Of a stretch of 39,331 nucleotides of DNA, positions 1,545 through 32,072 are shown one piece after another. The stretch comes from a virus, in IMG/VR virus record IMGVR_UViG_3300030090_002621, positions 1-39,331 of that record; one strand, 5' to 3'. The notes beneath the pieces are model-generated. The model ran no database searches, was not told the origin of the DNA, and was given only the letters and a program-made list of their open reading frames with translations. The position numbers were made by a program, and so were the translations under genes. The stretch's first letter is position 1. Every line of letters starts with the position of its first letter.

Positions 1545-2796
1545 TGAAATTATTGCTACATTATGTAATATATATAATTATAATAAATTCTCTTCTCTTA
1601 TTAGAGAAGATAGATTACAAGATGATTATAGAGATATTTATAAATCATTAAGTAATTACTATGACCAATCACCTGATGATGAAATAAACTGGGATCGGTT
1701 TAAACAATGGTACACGATCATTGAACACCCAAGCCTACCAGAAGGTAAAGCCGCAGCAATTAGTTCTGCTTGCGAACGCCTCAAGGAAACAGAAGTAGAT
1801 ACGGAGAGTGCTATTTTCCGAACCTTGTCCGAGAGATACTTCGCAAGTTTGATACACGAGAAATCTTTTGAAGTAGTTCAAGGTAAAAAATCTTTAGACG
1901 AGGTGAAAGACATTCTACGTAGATTTAATTTAGAATCGAAGGGTGTAGAACATGACGTAGACTCTATTACCTCAACCGATGAACAAGTCCTCGAACAAGT
2001 AAAGGAACTTCAGACTGAGGTTAGATACAAATGGTCTATCGAAGAACTAAACCTAATGTGTGGAGCTATAGGCCAAGGAGATTTTATCTTGTTAGGTGCG
2101 CGACCTGATGGGGGAAAAACTACCTTCCTACTCAACCAGGCGTGCGCTTTCGCATCTCAACTTGACGATGGAGAGTGTATCTTGTGGTGCAATAACGAGG
2201 AACCTCGGAGGAGAGTCGCCGCTAGACGATTTCAGGCAGGATTGGGGTGGACGAGAGAAGAGATAGACGCAGACCCAGAAACCGCACTGAAACACTTCCA
2301 AGCGAAGTACGGCGAGAACCGCATTGTTTCTCTCGATAAACCGACGCTCACGGTGTATGATATTGAGGCAGCTCTGGAGGAATTTAACCCGAAAGTGATT
2401 ATCATAGACCAACTTCATAAGGTGGGAGGATTCGAGAAAGAAGCGCAAGGTATAGAACGGTATGCAAAGTTGGCGCAATATATCCGAGGACTGTCTCAGT
2501 TGTATGGCCCCGTTATTGGTGCGTCACAACTAGATTGGACGGCTGATAACGTCAAGTTCCCAGAGATGGGTAGTTTGTATGGCTCGAAGACCGCCGTTCA
2601 GGGTGAGAGTGATTGCATCTTACTACTCGGTCAGTGTAGAGAGGAGGGCACAGATGTTAGGTTCTTATCTACACCTAAAAATAAACTACCATACGCAGAC
2701 GAGAATTACCGTTCAATAGGACAACCAGTAAAAATCGACAAAGCAAGAGCACAATTCATCTCTTTGATCGGGGGGAAGTATGCAAACAAAATCTAA
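1537..2796 (+). CDS. Replicative DNA helicase (DnaB/RecA-fold)
   Basis: Hexameric ATP-driven helicase that unwinds DNA at the fork and works with the primase encoded just upstream. The ATG at 1537 is chosen, giving MDNEII, because GGAGG lies nine bases before it; the in-frame ATG at 1462 lies deep in the primase gene. The N-terminal 150 residues are a helical domain. The RecA-like core has Walker A GARPDGGKTT (about 187-196), Walker B VIIIDQLH (about 287), and a later motif SLYGSKTAVQGESDCILLL that fits motif H4 of DnaB/gp4 helicases. Length of 419 aa is normal for a stand-alone phage DnaB-type helicase. It overlaps the polymerase start by 17 bases. Confidence 0.9.
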   Translation: MDNEIIATLCNIYNYNKFSSLIREDRLQDDYRDIYKSLSNYYDQSPDDEINWDRFKQWYTIIEHPSLPEGKAAAISSACERLKETEVDTESAIFRTLSERYFASLIHEKSFEVVQGKKSLDEVKDILRRFNLESKGVEHDVDSITSTDEQVLEQVKELQTEVRYKWSIEELNLMCGAIGQGDFILLGARPDGGKTTFLLNQACAFASQLDDGECILWCNNEEPRRRVAARRFQAGLGWTREEIDADPETALKHFQAKYGENRIVSLDKPTLTVYDIEAALEEFNPKVIIIDQLHKVGGFEKEAQGIERYAKLAQYIRGLSQLYGPVIGASQLDWTADNVKFPEMGSLYGSKTAVQGESDCILLLGQCREEGTDVRFLSTPKNKLPYADENYRSIGQPVKIDKARAQFISLIGGKYANKI

Positions 2797-3958
2797 TATA
2801 ATAGTCTTCGATATAGAGACTACAATTAACGCACCCTCTCCTCATTTTGGGGCGACCCCACACCACCGCGATAACGATATTGTACTGTTGGGATACTTAG
2901 AAGACTTCGGGGAGATTAAAATAACCGAAGACCCCTTAGAATTGAAGGATCGAATAGGTGCGGGAACTCGTTTGGTTGGACATAACATCGCGTTTGATCT
3001 GTCCTATTTAATGAGACACTTTGAAATCTCGCCACAAGTTGAGGTATGGGATACACAGAAGTTTGACTATCTGCTTTGTGGACGCGGTGCGAGAACCCCC
3101 TCTCTAGAGAAGACTGCGGAGAGAATGGAGGTTCCGTTTAAGAAGGACGAAGAAATTAAGGAACGGTTCCGAGTGGGGATTGGCTCAGATAAAATCTGTC
3201 GGAGACTGTTGACAGAGTACCTCGAAGAAGACGTTAGGACAACGGCTGCGGTGTATCTGCACCAACTAAACGCTATACCGGAGGACAGTAATCGCTCGGT
3301 GTACATACAGAAGCTAATGCAGGGGGTGCTAGTAACAACTCAGATGGCGTTCAATGGGCTACCTTTCCAGGTTGGGGGAGCTAGAAAAGAAGTAGAGGAG
3401 ATTATCTTAGAGAAAGAACACAGAGTATCGGAGGCCACCGAGAGATACGCAAGGCACTGGCCTACCCCTCTTGGAGAATTTAATCTATCGTCCCCCTCAC
3501 AGATCAAGCTATTCTTATGGGGTGGAGAGAAAAAGTATATTGTAGACACGCAAGTAACAAACGAACAAGGGGAACCAATACGATATAAGACAGGAGATAG
3601 GGTGGGAGAAATAAAAACAAAAAAAGAAACAAAGGTGTATGTGTCGGACGGGTTATGCTCCGCTAAAATAAAGCGGGAATTTTCTTTGAAAGGGTGGGAG
3701 ACAAACACAGATGATACCGCACTGAAAAGATTAATTGAGTTGGACAAAATCAGTAAGGATGTGCGTGAGTTTTCCAAAGACGTACTGAAGATAAGGAATT
3801 TAGAAAAAACCATATCGACCTACTATAAACCATACATAGAGTATTCTATTGACGGTAGGATACACCCAAACTACAATCACTGTATTACCCAAACAGGGAG
3901 GCTATCTTCATCTAAGCCCAATATGCAAAACATTTCTGGAAAAGGTACAGCACAATGA
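2780..3958 (+). CDS. DNA polymerase, family A, N-terminal part (3'-5' exonuclease and thumb)
   Basis: First of two ORFs that together make a family-A (Pol I/T7 gp5-like) replicative polymerase. The proofreading exonuclease motifs are complete: Exo I FDIETT (10-15), Exo II HNIAFDLSYL (about 67-76), Exo III YLEEDVRTTAAVY (about 147-159). The protein continues through the thumb to the conserved TGRLSSSKPNMQNIS at about 372-386, then stops six codons later. A lysine/threonine-rich insertion around 255-300 lies where some marine phages (HMO-2011 type) carry a DnaJ-like zinc domain, but no CxxCxGxG motif is present. The TGA overlaps the ATG of the second part in an ATGA. GGGGGGAAGT precedes the start at 2780. 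Confidence 0.9.
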   Translation: MQTKSNIIVFDIETTINAPSPHFGATPHHRDNDIVLLGYLEDFGEIKITEDPLELKDRIGAGTRLVGHNIAFDLSYLMRHFEISPQVEVWDTQKFDYLLCGRGARTPSLEKTAERMEVPFKKDEEIKERFRVGIGSDKICRRLLTEYLEEDVRTTAAVYLHQLNAIPEDSNRSVYIQKLMQGVLVTTQMAFNGLPFQVGGARKEVEEIILEKEHRVSEATERYARHWPTPLGEFNLSSPSQIKLFLWGGEKKYIVDTQVTNEQGEPIRYKTGDRVGEIKTKKETKVYVSDGLCSAKIKREFSLKGWETNTDDTALKRLIELDKISKDVREFSKDVLKIRNLEKTISTYYKPYIEYSIDGRIHPNYNHCITQTGRLSSSKPNMQNISGKGTAQ

Positions 3959-4773
3959 TATTGACACACTTCGCCACCGATAAAACATTCGCAGAGTTTG
4001 ATTACGCTCAACTAGAGATTAGAGTGCTGGCCCTAGCGACTAAGTGTAAACAACTCATCCAAGACATAAACGACGGAAGGGATATGCACACAGTCTTTGC
4101 GGCGGAGATTTTCCAAAAACCAGAGAAAGAGATTACACAAAAAGAACGTAGAATTGCTAAAGGTTTTTCTTTTCAGTTGCAATACGGCGCGGGGGCGAAG
4201 GGCATCGCTAAGTTTTGGAACGTGGATATAAATTTAGCAGAAACTTTTATCAATTCGTACTACGAACGGTATCCCGAAGTCAGGGAATGGCAGGAAGGAA
4301 TGTTATCAAAAGCAACGAAGACGCTAGACCACCGAGGAGACAAGAATAAAGAGGGGGAGGGTATACCTAGTTATTTTCTACCCACTATATGGCAATGCCC
4401 CGAAACAAAACAACCGCTTGGATACTTCAGACTGCTCGGAGAGAAACCAGAATGGAAAAACCACTACACAATATCCCCGACTAAAGTTAAGAACTACGCA
4501 ATACAAGGGGGAGCATCAGACATAATGATGTTTATGTTGGTGAAATTACAACGAGCTTTAGAGAGGTATCCGACTAAGGTTTTAAACACGGTACACGATT
4601 CGGTATTGTTGGAGATAGACGATAATTTAGAGGAGGTAGCGACACTAACCAAACAAACTCTGGAAAGTGTGCCGGAAGAATTACAGACGGCGTTTTCTAT
4701 CACTAGTCCGATACCGTTCCCCGTAGATTATAGTTTTGGAAAAACACTAGAGGAGGTGAAAAGAAACAGTTGA
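3955..4773 (+). CDS. DNA polymerase, family A, C-terminal part (palm and fingers)
   Basis: Carries the polymerase active site missing from the preceding ORF. Motif A is FDYAQLEIRVLA (catalytic Asp near 15). The O-helix is RRIAKGFSFQLQYG (about 65-78), with Arg, Lys, Phe and Tyr at the positions equal to E. coli R754, K758, F762 and Y766. Motif C is NTVHDSVLLEID (catalytic HD near 215). Phenylalanine at the 762-like position is common in virulent phages. The start is the ATG of the ATGA overlap. The missing join lies in a loop between TGRLSSS and motif A, and no conserved residues are lost. The two chains could assemble, be joined by -1 frameshifting, or reflect a one-base assembly error. Confidence 0.9.
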   Translation: MILTHFATDKTFAEFDYAQLEIRVLALATKCKQLIQDINDGRDMHTVFAAEIFQKPEKEITQKERRIAKGFSFQLQYGAGAKGIAKFWNVDINLAETFINSYYERYPEVREWQEGMLSKATKTLDHRGDKNKEGEGIPSYFLPTIWQCPETKQPLGYFRLLGEKPEWKNHYTISPTKVKNYAIQGGASDIMMFMLVKLQRALERYPTKVLNTVHDSVLLEIDDNLEEVATLTKQTLESVPEELQTAFSITSPIPFPVDYSFGKTLEEVKRNS

Positions 4774-10751: not shown

Positions 10752-11303
10752 TCATTCCCGAAAGAACCACCACCCTGTACAGATATACTTCGTTCCTTTT
10801 AGGGGCGGGTTCCCTCTGTGTTGCCAAGGCCAAGCGGCGGGGAAGATAACTAACTTCCCTGCTTCTGGGGGGACTCGTTCCATTTGATTAAGAAACTCTG
10901 TTTCCCCACCCTCTTCTATGTCGTTCATATATAACGTCCAGACGAGTGCTCTAGCAACCCCATCACTTCTACCGCTTTGCTCACAATGCCAAACGTGATA
11001 GCCCCCGCCTGGTTCTGTTTTCTGCATCTTTACGTTGTACCCGACTACGGGTAATTCACTTCCTCCCGCAAACTCCGCTAAGTAGGTCTGTAGGTAGGGC
11101 TGTATGGCTCGGTGTATTTCCCCCGATAGTGGGGAACAATGGTCTTCTAACATAATAGAAGAGTCCTTCCTTCCCAACTTAGTTCCGAACTGTGGTTCCC
11201 CCGAGTGAGAACTTTCTTGTTCTATCTCGTCGAATCTCTTTATTATTTTATCTAATACGTCTTTGCCGAGTACATCCCTGTAAGCCCGAATAAATGAATC
11301 CAT
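10752..11303 (-). CDS. 2-oxoglutarate/Fe(II)-dependent oxygenase (prolyl-4-hydroxylase-like)
   Basis: Last gene of the minus-strand late unit. The double-stranded beta-helix oxygenase signature is readable: GGGYHVWHCE supplies His106 and Glu108 as the metal-binding HxE (HxD is more usual), EGGETEF sits mid-domain, and WPWQHRGNPPLKGTKYICTGWW gives the distal His162 and Lys172 for 2-oxoglutarate. Phages from the ocean commonly carry such genes; proposed roles include hydroxylating a virion or host protein or modifying bases. The substrate here is unknown. It is convergent with the methyltransferase, with only two bases between. 183 aa fits a minimal single-domain member. Confidence 0.82.
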   Translation of the reverse strand: MDSFIRAYRDVLGKDVLDKIIKRFDEIEQESSHSGEPQFGTKLGRKDSSIMLEDHCSPLSGEIHRAIQPYLQTYLAEFAGGSELPVVGYNVKMQKTEPGGGYHVWHCEQSGRSDGVARALVWTLYMNDIEEGGETEFLNQMERVPPEAGKLVIFPAAWPWQHRGNPPLKGTKYICTGWWFFRE

Positions 11304-25029: not shown

Positions 25030-25359
25030 TTATACTGCGAATGAACTACCACATCCACATGTAGTTTGTACATTCGGGTTTCGTATTACGAACTGTGAAG
25101 CAAAGTGATTTGTAGAATAGTCAATCTCTGCTCCATCTAAATACTGTAGACTTAACGGATCAACGACTAAGGTAATTCCATCTGTAGTTACAGCCATATC
25201 ATCTTCTTTTCTGTCATCAAACGTAAAACCATATTGGAAGCCAGAACATCCTCCCCCTTCTATAAATACTCGGAGATTAGTCCCTTCCATCGTTTCTTCA
25301 TCTTCTTGCATAATCTCTTTTACTTTCTTTGCGGCACTACTGTGAAAGACTAATGACAT
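25030..25359 (-). CDS. erpA: A-type Fe-S cluster carrier/insertion protein (ErpA-like)
   Basis: Delivers iron-sulfur clusters to apo-proteins. The resemblance to bacterial ErpA is strong by eye: [39 protein letters not shown] and [18 protein letters not shown], with the three cluster-binding cysteines C38, C101 and C103 all present. Length of 109 aa is the normal full length, so the gene is not a remnant. It is co-transcribed with fibre and head genes, so it acts late. As a host-type metabolic gene it may sustain Fe-S enzymes during infection, or add a cluster to a phage protein such as the Cys-rich virion-region protein at 17374-17781. Confidence 0.93.
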
Positions 25360-30085: not shown

Positions 30086-31375
30086 TTACATACCCGCAAC
30101 AGCATCTAAGGGTTCCCACTCATCTTTTTGACTTATTGCCATATCGTATGGTGTAACCGCAATTTGGTCTATATACGCCAAACTATCTATCATATCATCG
30201 TGCGCTAACGGATTAGGGAAATCTAAAAGTTGATCTGTTACTTTTGGTAAGTAGTCGCCTTCGGAAAAAGTTAATCTACCTTGTTCCATTCGACCCTGTA
30301 ATGCCCAAACAATTCGGTCATACTTTTTTTGATTACCGTGTGTTAGTTCTACAATATAAGGAAAGGTATTTAATCTCCGCATATTGTCATGTAAATAAGG
30401 CATAAGAGCATTTTTTAACGCTCCTCGTTCGATACCCACTACTTTTGGCTTGTATTGTTGGGCCGCTCGTAAAATACGAATAGCGGTTTCCCGAACATTC
30501 CATCGACCAGTAATAATATCGTGTACGTGCCAGCCATCTTCTGAAACCTCTACGATTGAAATAGCAGTTTCATCTAGTCGTTTAGCTTTACCCTGAGAGA
30601 TACCTCGTGCATCTTCGTATCCCGCCGGATCTACTGTCATATAGAGTTCACCAGAAGTCGTTTTTTTATCCACAACCTCTATCATGTCGCTCTTGAAGAT
30701 AGTACCGCCAAATGAAGAAAAACTAGCTTCAAACTCTTGCTTAACAAACTCTAGTGGCATATCCTTTGAAGCAAGAATAACTTCTTCTGGATCTAAAAAC
30801 GGGTTGTCTAGTGATCTATAAGTCCAGGCACCCCACTCGTCAAACGTGTTTTCATCTTTAGCGTTTAAAAATAAATCGTAAAAATGATTTTTACCATTTG
30901 GTGTTCCTATGAAAAGTGCGCCACCTTTAACATCTGCGAGAGTGGGTCGTATAATTGCTGTCCAAACATCCTCTTTCATAAAAGCATATTCGTCCATTAC
31001 GACATACGATAATCCAACTCCTCGAAGTGATTCTGGACGGTCGGAACCTTTAAGATGGATTTGCCGACCATTTACAAGCGTAAGAATACACTCATTTTCT
31101 CGCGCTTTTTCTGTAATAGGGGCCGCCATCTGCTTTAATGACTGCCACATTATGTCTTTTGCTTGATTAAATGTCGGAGCTATGTAATAACACGCTTTAT
31201 CCGAAAGGTCATAATCAAACTCATTCCTAGTTTCTAAGGCTTTTGTAATTAACTTTACCCGCGCAAGATAAGATTTACCAAACCTTCTTCCCGCACCGAC
31301 AACTTTAAAACGCTTATCGGCTACGAAAATCTCTTGTTGAGCGGGGTGTAAAGAAAAATTAAGTTCTATCGCCAT
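30086..31375 (-). CDS. Terminase, large subunit
   Basis: Motor ATPase and nuclease that packages DNA into the head. ATPase domain: Walker A GAGRRFGKS (27-35), Walker B YVVMDEYAF (about 125-132), coupling motif FIGTPNGKNHFYDLF. RNase H-like nuclease domain: MTVDPAG (near 246), VGIERGALKNAL and AHDDMIDSLAY (near 394), which give the acidic triad. 429 aa is a slightly short but complete large subunit. It starts only three bases after the tiny pqqA-like gene, with no clear ribosome site of its own, so its translation may be coupled to that gene. Confidence 0.92.
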   Translation of the reverse strand: MAIELNFSLHPAQQEIFVADKRFKVVGAGRRFGKSYLARVKLITKALETRNEFDYDLSDKACYYIAPTFNQAKDIMWQSLKQMAAPITEKARENECILTLVNGRQIHLKGSDRPESLRGVGLSYVVMDEYAFMKEDVWTAIIRPTLADVKGGALFIGTPNGKNHFYDLFLNAKDENTFDEWGAWTYRSLDNPFLDPEEVILASKDMPLEFVKQEFEASFSSFGGTIFKSDMIEVVDKKTTSGELYMTVDPAGYEDARGISQGKAKRLDETAISIVEVSEDGWHVHDIITGRWNVRETAIRILRAAQQYKPKVVGIERGALKNALMPYLHDNMRRLNTFPYIVELTHGNQKKYDRIVWALQGRMEQGRLTFSEGDYLPKVTDQLLDFPNPLAHDDMIDSLAYIDQIAVTPYDMAISQKDEWEPLDAVAGM

Positions 31376-31378
31376 AGA

Positions 31379-31465
31379 TTAACGATTAAAAATATACATC
31401 GTCACTTCAAACCCAAAACGAATGTTTTCATACTCTGGTTTAGTCCACTGTGTATTAATATCCAC
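31379..31465 (-). CDS. pqqA: PqqA-like peptide, precursor of the redox cofactor PQQ (28 aa)
   Basis: GTG start, 28 codons, ending TAA three bases before the large terminase. The peptide reads VDINTQWTKPEYENIR followed by FGFEVTMYIFNR. Known bacterial PqqA peptides are 22-29 residues with the pattern WTKPxxxxxRxGFEVTxYxxxR; every fixed residue is here. The Glu and Tyr of EVTMY are the two residues that PqqE cross-links and that become the PQQ backbone. RBS: GGGGA, spaced nine bases. No pqqB, C, D, E or F gene is present, so a host pathway would have to process it. It is too short to be seen by usual gene-length cut-offs. It overlaps the preceding small gene by 11 bases. Confidence in the family is high; function in infection is unknown. 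Confidence 0.88.
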   Translation of the reverse strand: MDINTQWTKPEYENIRFGFEVTMYIFNR

Positions 31466-31562
31466 GTTTACTTCCCCTTTTCTTTTTCCTTTCCTTATCT
31501 TTCGTCTTTTTCTTTTTTGGTCTTCCTACCTTTGACCCGTAAGTTCCCTTTCCTCGTGGCAT
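31455..31562 (-). CDS. Tiny basic protein, 35 aa
   Basis: ATG in a TAATG overlap with the preceding tiny gene; it ends 11 bases inside pqqA. The start MPRGKGTYGSKVGRPKK is a recurrent opening of very small phage proteins near the terminase genes, and the rest is almost all Lys/Arg/Glu (KKKTKDKERKKKRGSKRGY). Strong positive charge suggests DNA or RNA contact, perhaps a packaging accessory or virion-DNA condensing peptide. Function unknown. Confidence 0.65.
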   Translation of the reverse strand: MPRGKGTYGSKVGRPKKKKTKDKERKKKRGSKRGY

Positions 31563-31717
31563 TATTTGCCTCCGTTAGAGACACCTTTTGGTGGGATCTT
31601 TGTAGCCGAAGCCGTACTTGCCGCTTGGTGTATTTTAGCGGATACTGTGCCACCTTGGTTATTGACACCACCGGATTTACCCGCATTAGCGTAATCACTA
31701 CATTGATTTTTATTCAT
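31562..31717 (-). CDS. Small protein, 51 aa
   Basis: ATG 31717 follows AAAGAGG at good spacing, one base after the small-terminase stop, and the stop overlaps the next start in TAATG. Sequence: MNKNQCSDYANAGKSGGVNN, then Ala/Ser/Thr/Gly-rich to the end. It has one cysteine and appears largely disordered. Both ends fit the operon exactly, the main reason to accept it over competing frames on either strand. Function unknown. Confidence 0.6.
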   Translation of the reverse strand: MNKNQCSDYANAGKSGGVNNQGGTVSAKIHQAASTASATKIPPKGVSNGGK

Positions 31718-31718
31718 A

Positions 31719-32072
31719 TTAAACCTCTTTAAATTCCGCCTCTACAGGCTCTTTGTTTAGTGCGTCTGCTTCTAGTCCAGATATATTAATAATAATCCCA
31801 CCAGAATCGTTTGCACCATAATGTTCGACAGCCTTACGCGCAGGTATTGCGCGATCTAATAATAATCGGGCTGCTGCCATATCGCCACCTTTGGCTTCCC
31901 GAATAACTGTTTTGATCACCGCCTTAAATTCTTTAGTCATTTCCCCTGCAAAGAGTTCAACTAACTCATTTTGCATTTGGGTCAATTTATTTTTACTACC
32001 TTTAGGTCTTCCTGATGGGTTTAATGATTTTCCTCCCTTAACTAAATTAGGGTTTCCTCGCTTACCTGCCAC
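31719..32072 (-). CDS. Probable terminase small subunit (DUF5681-type N-terminus)
   Basis: GTG start with GAGGGG upstream. The N-terminus GKRGNPNLVKGGKSLNPSGRPKGSKNKL has the GNPxxxKGxSxNPxGRPKGS pattern of a DNA-binding AT-hook-like element found in phage small-terminase/DUF5681 proteins. A helical body (LTQMQNELVELFAGEMTKEFKAVIKTVIREAKGGDMAAARLLLDRAIP) and an acidic tail follow. Placed three small genes ahead of the large terminase, it probably recognises phage DNA for packaging. 117 aa is short but within range. Confidence 0.75.
   Translation of the reverse strand: MAGKRGNPNLVKGGKSLNPSGRPKGSKNKLTQMQNELVELFAGEMTKEFKAVIKTVIREAKGGDMAAARLLLDRAIPARKAVEHYGANDSGGIIINISGLEADALNKEPVEAEFKEV

Follow-up and report, generated by a model that had tools for sequence, protein, structure and literature searches.

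Auxiliary metabolic genes of the enzyme type, e.g. psbA, are host metabolic genes that phages keep for infection. In the synthesis of the cofactor PQQ, PqqE together with PqqD makes a carbon-carbon bond from the Glu to the Tyr of the precursor peptide PqqA (PMC5715301). Viral PqqA has already been reported once in detail, in 2020, for the methylotroph phages VP_139 and VP_266 of Lake Baikal, where PqqA is carried by predicted Methylophilaceae phage and a benefit to methanol oxidation was proposed (PMC7678222). Moreover, a 2026 reservoir survey counts pqqA, pqqD and pqqE among viral phosphorus-cycle genes (PMC13188868). A recurrent, stand-alone pqqA in cultured methylotroph phages appears to be undescribed; our literature search, which took in few subscription papers and preprints and leaves priority unproven, found no description of one, and the papers on OM43 phages that it returned do not mention pqqA.

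The window analysed here is the whole 39,331 nt of IMG/VR virus record IMGVR_UViG_3300030090_002621. It is a phage sequence, encoding a helicase, a family A DNA polymerase, endonuclease I, ribonucleotide reductase, a terminase, a portal-like protein and tail proteins. The polymerase occupies two plus-strand ORFs (2780-3958 and 3955-4773) with a 4-base overlap, and the two halves match separate PHROG families, so the split is known elsewhere. A 2OG-Fe(II) oxygenase gene (10752-11303, minus strand, PF13640) adjoins virion genes, and the late region holds an A-type iron-sulphur scaffold gene (25030-25359, minus strand; PF01521, 1.6e-19) with about 60% identity to Methylophagaceae homologues. PqqE belongs to the iron-sulphur enzymes, and a link between pqqA and the scaffold gene was considered and rejected for want of co-occurrence: among viral loci related through the large terminase gene (terL) only one (L145) has the scaffold, and no pqqA was found there. 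No tRNA genes were found in the window. The gene of interest lies in the following interval:

31379 to 31465, minus strand: pqqA, 28 codons from a GTG start to a TAA stop, peptide VDINTQWTKPEYENIRFGFEVTMYIFNR, identified by PF08042, TIGR02107 and in-frame conservation in relatives
31394 to 31420, minus strand: invariant core RFGFEVTMY, placed via the translation, with no amino-acid change in terL-anchored relatives
31406 to 31408 and 31394 to 31396, minus strand: the Glu codon and the Tyr codon, the pair joined by PqqE in known PqqA

A sequence-only reading had proposed a phage-encoded PqqA on this GTG-started frame; its coordinates are exact, and the strand, which it left unstated, is minus. 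The PqqA identity that it claimed was upheld by profile searches, both far above their cut-offs. Pfam PF08042 (PqqA) matches over all 19 model positions (E=3.4e-10, 40.1 bits; gathering cut-off 21.1 bits), and the NCBIfam equivalog TIGR02107 matches over model positions 1-20 of 21 (E=1.2e-11, 44.2 bits; cut-off 20 bits). This is the single PqqA match in the 39.3 kb record. Moreover, the PqqA-type spacing of Glu and Tyr is present, with three residues between them (EVTMY). As judged from its sequence, the ORF is a genuine PqqA.

The surroundings of pqqA are compact:

31471 to 31479, minus strand: Shine-Dalgarno-like site of pqqA, AAGGGGAAG, anti-SD duplex -7.8 kcal/mol
30086 to 31375, minus strand: terL, large terminase subunit (PHROG phrog_2, E=3.5e-46)
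31455 to 31562, minus strand: small basic ORF of 35 aa, beginning MPRGKGTYGSKVGRPKKK, read from the sequence
31562 to 31717, minus strand: ORF of 51 aa, beginning MNKNQCSDYANAGKSGG, in the same small-gene run before terL, with equivalent ORFs in most relatives
31719 to 32072, minus strand: ORF of 117 aa, beginning MAGKRGNPNLVKGG, upstream in the same run, with weak PHROG matches and of unknown function

pqqA thus sits within a minus-strand run that holds terL and other virion genes. A good ribosome site and tight packing with the neighbours had both been proposed, and both are seen: a duplex as strong as that of pqqA is reached at 3.8% of random window positions, the last 11 nt of the 35-aa basic ORF overlap the pqqA start, and the terL ATG starts 3 nt past the pqqA stop. 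Counterparts of the basic ORF occupy the same place in relatives without pqqA beside terL. No ribosome site was seen for terL itself (+1.2 kcal/mol) and, given the strong site of pqqA, its translation probably depends on coupling to that of pqqA. The association of pqqA with terminase, suggested earlier, is confined to part of the phage family.

The extent of that link comes from 80 loci fetched from viral contigs by TerL alone, blind to pqqA. An intact pqqA was found in 14 of them (L122, L123, L125-L131, L143, L147, L149, L157 and L159), in at least three positions. It stands directly before terL in the window, L122, L123, L143 and L157, before an ORF of roughly 120 aa in L125-L131, L149 and L159, and more than 2 kb upstream of terL in L147. 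In three loci (L123 2834-2944, L143 672-785 and L157 2456-2569) PqqA has a basic stretch fused to its N-terminus, replacing the small basic ORF before terL and offering a natural test of the leader length that PqqD and PqqE tolerate. The core RFGFEVTMY is unchanged across the terL-relative versions. Between distinct versions the pooled pS was 0.70 and pN 0.15, a rough figure obtained without a formal test from related, non-independent pairs with synonymous sites near saturation, and one that points to purifying selection on the peptide. Given these values, and a frame kept in independently found relatives, the window ORF is not a product of chance. Most relatives whose TerL is about 80% identical have no pqqA in the DNA searched, much of it fragmentary, and a whole-record search of 50 of the records behind these loci found no pqqA beyond the known L147 copy. 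Some of the records lacking it are 30-42 kb long, so pqqA comes and goes in the phage family of the window, and it is dispensable in part of it.

We then consider the Glu and Tyr themselves. In the first scan of viral contigs E, V, T and Y were part of the search pattern, and at least 120 loci matched. A second scan fixed M-W-T-K-P....M-R-F-G-F and left the E, V, T, M and Y codons free; its loci were mostly shared with the first scan, with 25 new. All 120 matches of this blind scan (120/120) are intact ORFs in which Glu, Thr and Tyr are all present. Across 108 distinct DNA versions Glu and Tyr are invariant whilst their codons vary synonymously (Tyr: TAT 58, TAC 50; Glu: GAA 103, GAG 5). Thr is likewise invariant with all four codons in use, and within the five EVTMY codons the only amino-acid replacements are Ile for Val and Leu for Met. 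The proposed check, that Glu and Tyr be kept in related phages, was therefore passed in the terL relatives and in the blind scan alike. This invariance argues for a peptide that would work as a PqqE substrate and against a decoy lacking the reactive residues.

A tblastn search of 50,697 annotated phage records recovered the same twelve whether the query was the window peptide or the common viral form. Nine are cultured phages of OM43/LD28 methylotrophs: MEP401, MEP402, four Melnitz phages, Venkman, P19250A and MEP301. A tenth record is the genome of an uncultured phage from Manatee Spring; its peptide is identical to the PqqA of Methylophilus aquaticus (Methylophilaceae type). The remaining two, both 'Acinetobacter phage MD-2021a' (CAKLQF020000010.1 and CAKLQH020000055.1), are mislabelled and apparently not phage; the former carries pqqABCDE and a polyphosphate kinase gene and is apparently host chromosome labelled as phage. 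In most of the ten convincing records pqqA is unannotated, and in the isolates examined it is either unannotated or covered only by a hypothetical ORF on the opposite strand. Gene callers thus miss functional peptides of this size even in well-studied phage genomes. The phages that carry pqqA span Kyanoviridae, Zobellviridae and unclassified groups, and methylotroph phages are absent among the best matches of the window TerL. A further pqqA, MWTKPTAQEMRFGFEITMYVMNR, was observed on a 356 kb viral contig (IMGVR_UViG_3300023174_000036).

The viral pqqA loci hold capsid, portal, terminase, baseplate and recombination genes. Outside the terL setting the gene often looks, from its arrangement, like a free-standing unit. 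A ribosome site precedes it in 122/124 loci of other phages, a terminator hairpin follows it in 33/124 compared with 25/482 for other phage ORFs, and it is antisense to both neighbours in 34 loci. Promoter-like sites upstream of pqqA (111/124 loci) were uninformative against a control rate of 0.88.

The claim that phages supply only the substrate held throughout the 35 phage records with pqqA that were searched for pqqE, which include six named complete genomes: none has pqqE, and the one weak radical-SAM match lies far below the cut-off. Moreover, pqqBCDE was found in none of 200 viral loci, and no PQQ-dependent alcohol dehydrogenase, including methanol dehydrogenase as in the Baikal case, was found in 75 records, many of them fragments. 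It is likely that phages of PQQ-dependent methylotrophs have repeatedly taken up a stand-alone substrate gene, boosting the cofactor by giving host enzymes nothing but the precursor peptide that they consume. This would have happened in at least four phage groups, namely the podovirus-like family of the window, T4-like Kyanoviridae, Zobellviridae and the group of Venkman, P19250A and MEP301, and mostly unnoticed in a gene of 23-28 codons.

The closest PqqA peptides in bacteria come mainly from methylotrophs (Methylophaga, Methylovorus, Methylophilus, Methylomonas and others), and the window PqqA is 82% identical over 22 residues to that of Methylophaga. A check of the host pathway had been proposed; both pqqA and pqqE occur in the bacterial taxa that other phages with pqqA are known to infect. 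Amongst 150 Methylophilaceae genomes, pqqA occurs in 149, commonly in several copies, and pqqE in 141, nearly always once; the pqqBCDE cluster is present in one small genome from these host taxa. Methylophagaceae follow the same pattern of multiple pqqA and mostly single pqqE. Individual Methylophaga and Methylophilaceae genomes (e.g. G055, G056, G094 and G177) reach 9-12 pqqA copies with one or two pqqE. This agrees with a report of 3-12 pqqA copies in Methylophilaceae, with the remaining pqq genes single (PMC4109929). With several pqqA copies per single pqqE, hosts amplify only the gene for the substrate, and this multi-copy state fits a phage that adds a substrate consumed one per PQQ. In acetic acid bacteria, a study of G. 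oxydans is cited as placing pqqA second in a ranking of single genes whose overexpression increases PQQ (PMC7936290), and in A. pasteurianus pqqAB raised PQQ by 29% and the whole operon eightfold (PMC7936290).

The host of the window itself is, we infer, a methylotroph; its 22-residue stretch resembles peptides of marine gammaproteobacterial methylotrophs, a resemblance too short to settle the host. No isolate belongs to its phage family. When 20 kb of the window was compared at the DNA level with 57 Methylophagaceae genomes, neither a prophage nor a clear spacer turned up; the matches fell mainly in the iron-sulphur scaffold gene (25030-25359), which is conserved, and in a repeat within a tail gene. 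A comparison of window TerL with 369 genomes of the class yielded one match, at 50%, and no usable host link.

We consider it quite likely that the phage feeds stoichiometrically consumed PqqA to host PqqB-E and so sustains PQQ-dependent methanol oxidation during infection. The peptide would be translated within the minus-strand run together with terL and virion genes. Host PqqD would bind it, PqqE would join its Glu and Tyr, and host enzymes would complete PQQ, using up one PqqA for each. The contribution of the phage would be substrate rather than catalyst, and the PQQ level may rise. The periplasmic PQQ-dependent methanol dehydrogenase would stay loaded, respiration would continue during infection and phage yield may benefit. 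A gain from extra substrate alone assumes that PqqA limits PQQ in the hosts.

Of three roles offered by the sequence-only reading, substrate supply fits best, whilst competition with host PqqA or occupation of PqqD/PqqE is disfavoured. It is unlikely that the peptide is a decoy that occupies PqqD/PqqE or competes with host PqqA, lowering PQQ or disturbing host metabolism. Small peptides are typical phage takeover factors, and a decoy would bind the same chaperone. However, Glu and Tyr would be dispensable in a dead-end inhibitor, yet all 120 blind-scan copies keep both. Moreover, the phage peptide can equal that of the host, as in the Manatee Spring phage, and hosts themselves make several pqqA copies. 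Less probable again is a block to superinfection, suggested by the finding that PqqU, the outer-membrane PQQ importer, is a phage receptor in E. coli (PMC12124388). Excess PQQ would exit the infected cell and close PqqU to competing phages; against this, there is no sign of PqqU use by methylotroph phages, and methylotroph hosts produce PQQ themselves.

The lack of a ribosome site for terL, 3 nt after the pqqA stop, and the basic ORF that takes this position where relatives lack pqqA could also be read as pointing to a leader ORF, kept since its translation drives terL and resembling PqqA incidentally. We regard this as very improbable: amino-acid conservation goes well beyond the needs of coupling, relatives have pqqA away from terL, and in other phages pqqA is a solitary gene that has a terminator to itself and often runs antisense to the genes on both sides. 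Finally, mislabelling does occur, as the 'Acinetobacter phage MD-2021a' record with pqqA next to pqqBCDE demonstrates, and pqqA contigs could in principle be bacterial DNA or chance gene remnants. For the isolates this is already refuted by complete genomes of cultured phages with pqqA, and elsewhere the virion and recombination genes around pqqA and the 0/200 count for pqqBCDE make it barely conceivable. The terminase, portal, tail, polymerase and endonuclease I genes of the window and the cultured isolates thus both place pqqA in true phage genomes, and substrate supply remains our preferred reading.

In summary, phage pqqA is a metabolic gene that encodes a consumed substrate, not an enzyme, and it suggests that PQQ supply is limiting while methanol oxidisers are being infected; these bacteria matter for the carbon cycle of coasts and lakes. 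Its role can be tested now, since phages that carry it (Venkman, Melnitz, MEP301, MEP401/402 and P19250A) are in culture with their hosts, for instance Venkman with H5P1 and P19250A with IMCC19250; the H5P1 medium contains 1 nM PQQ (PMC9004378). Moreover, pqqA is a simple host marker, true copies in annotated phage records occurring only in methylotroph phages and one uncultured phage with a Methylophilaceae-type PqqA.

Compared with bacterial PqqA of the methylotroph type (MWTKP..MRFGFEVTMY..N[KR]), the window peptide shares the full-length model match, the Glu-x-x-x-Tyr spacing and the flanking W/P, R and NR. It differs in its GTG start and in an N-terminus longer by six residues, with basic N-terminal fusions in relatives L123 and L143, and in being phage-borne without pqqE, related viral loci having no pqqBCDE. 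The Baikal phages VP_139 and VP_266 share a phage-encoded PqqA and the same proposed benefit to methanol oxidation; however, the Baikal phage is T4-like and also encodes methanol dehydrogenase, with pqqA beside it (PMC7678222), whereas here pqqA is stand-alone, occurs in unrelated phages, lies next to terL in the family of the window and has had the conservation of its reactive residues tested. The reservoir survey likewise reports virus-encoded pqqA, but only as a list item under phosphate solubilisation, with no peptide-level analysis in the passages concerned (PMC13188868). Genes of the psbA type and phage pqqA are alike in being retained for infection, and differ in that phage pqqA encodes a substrate peptide that is consumed, not a catalyst.
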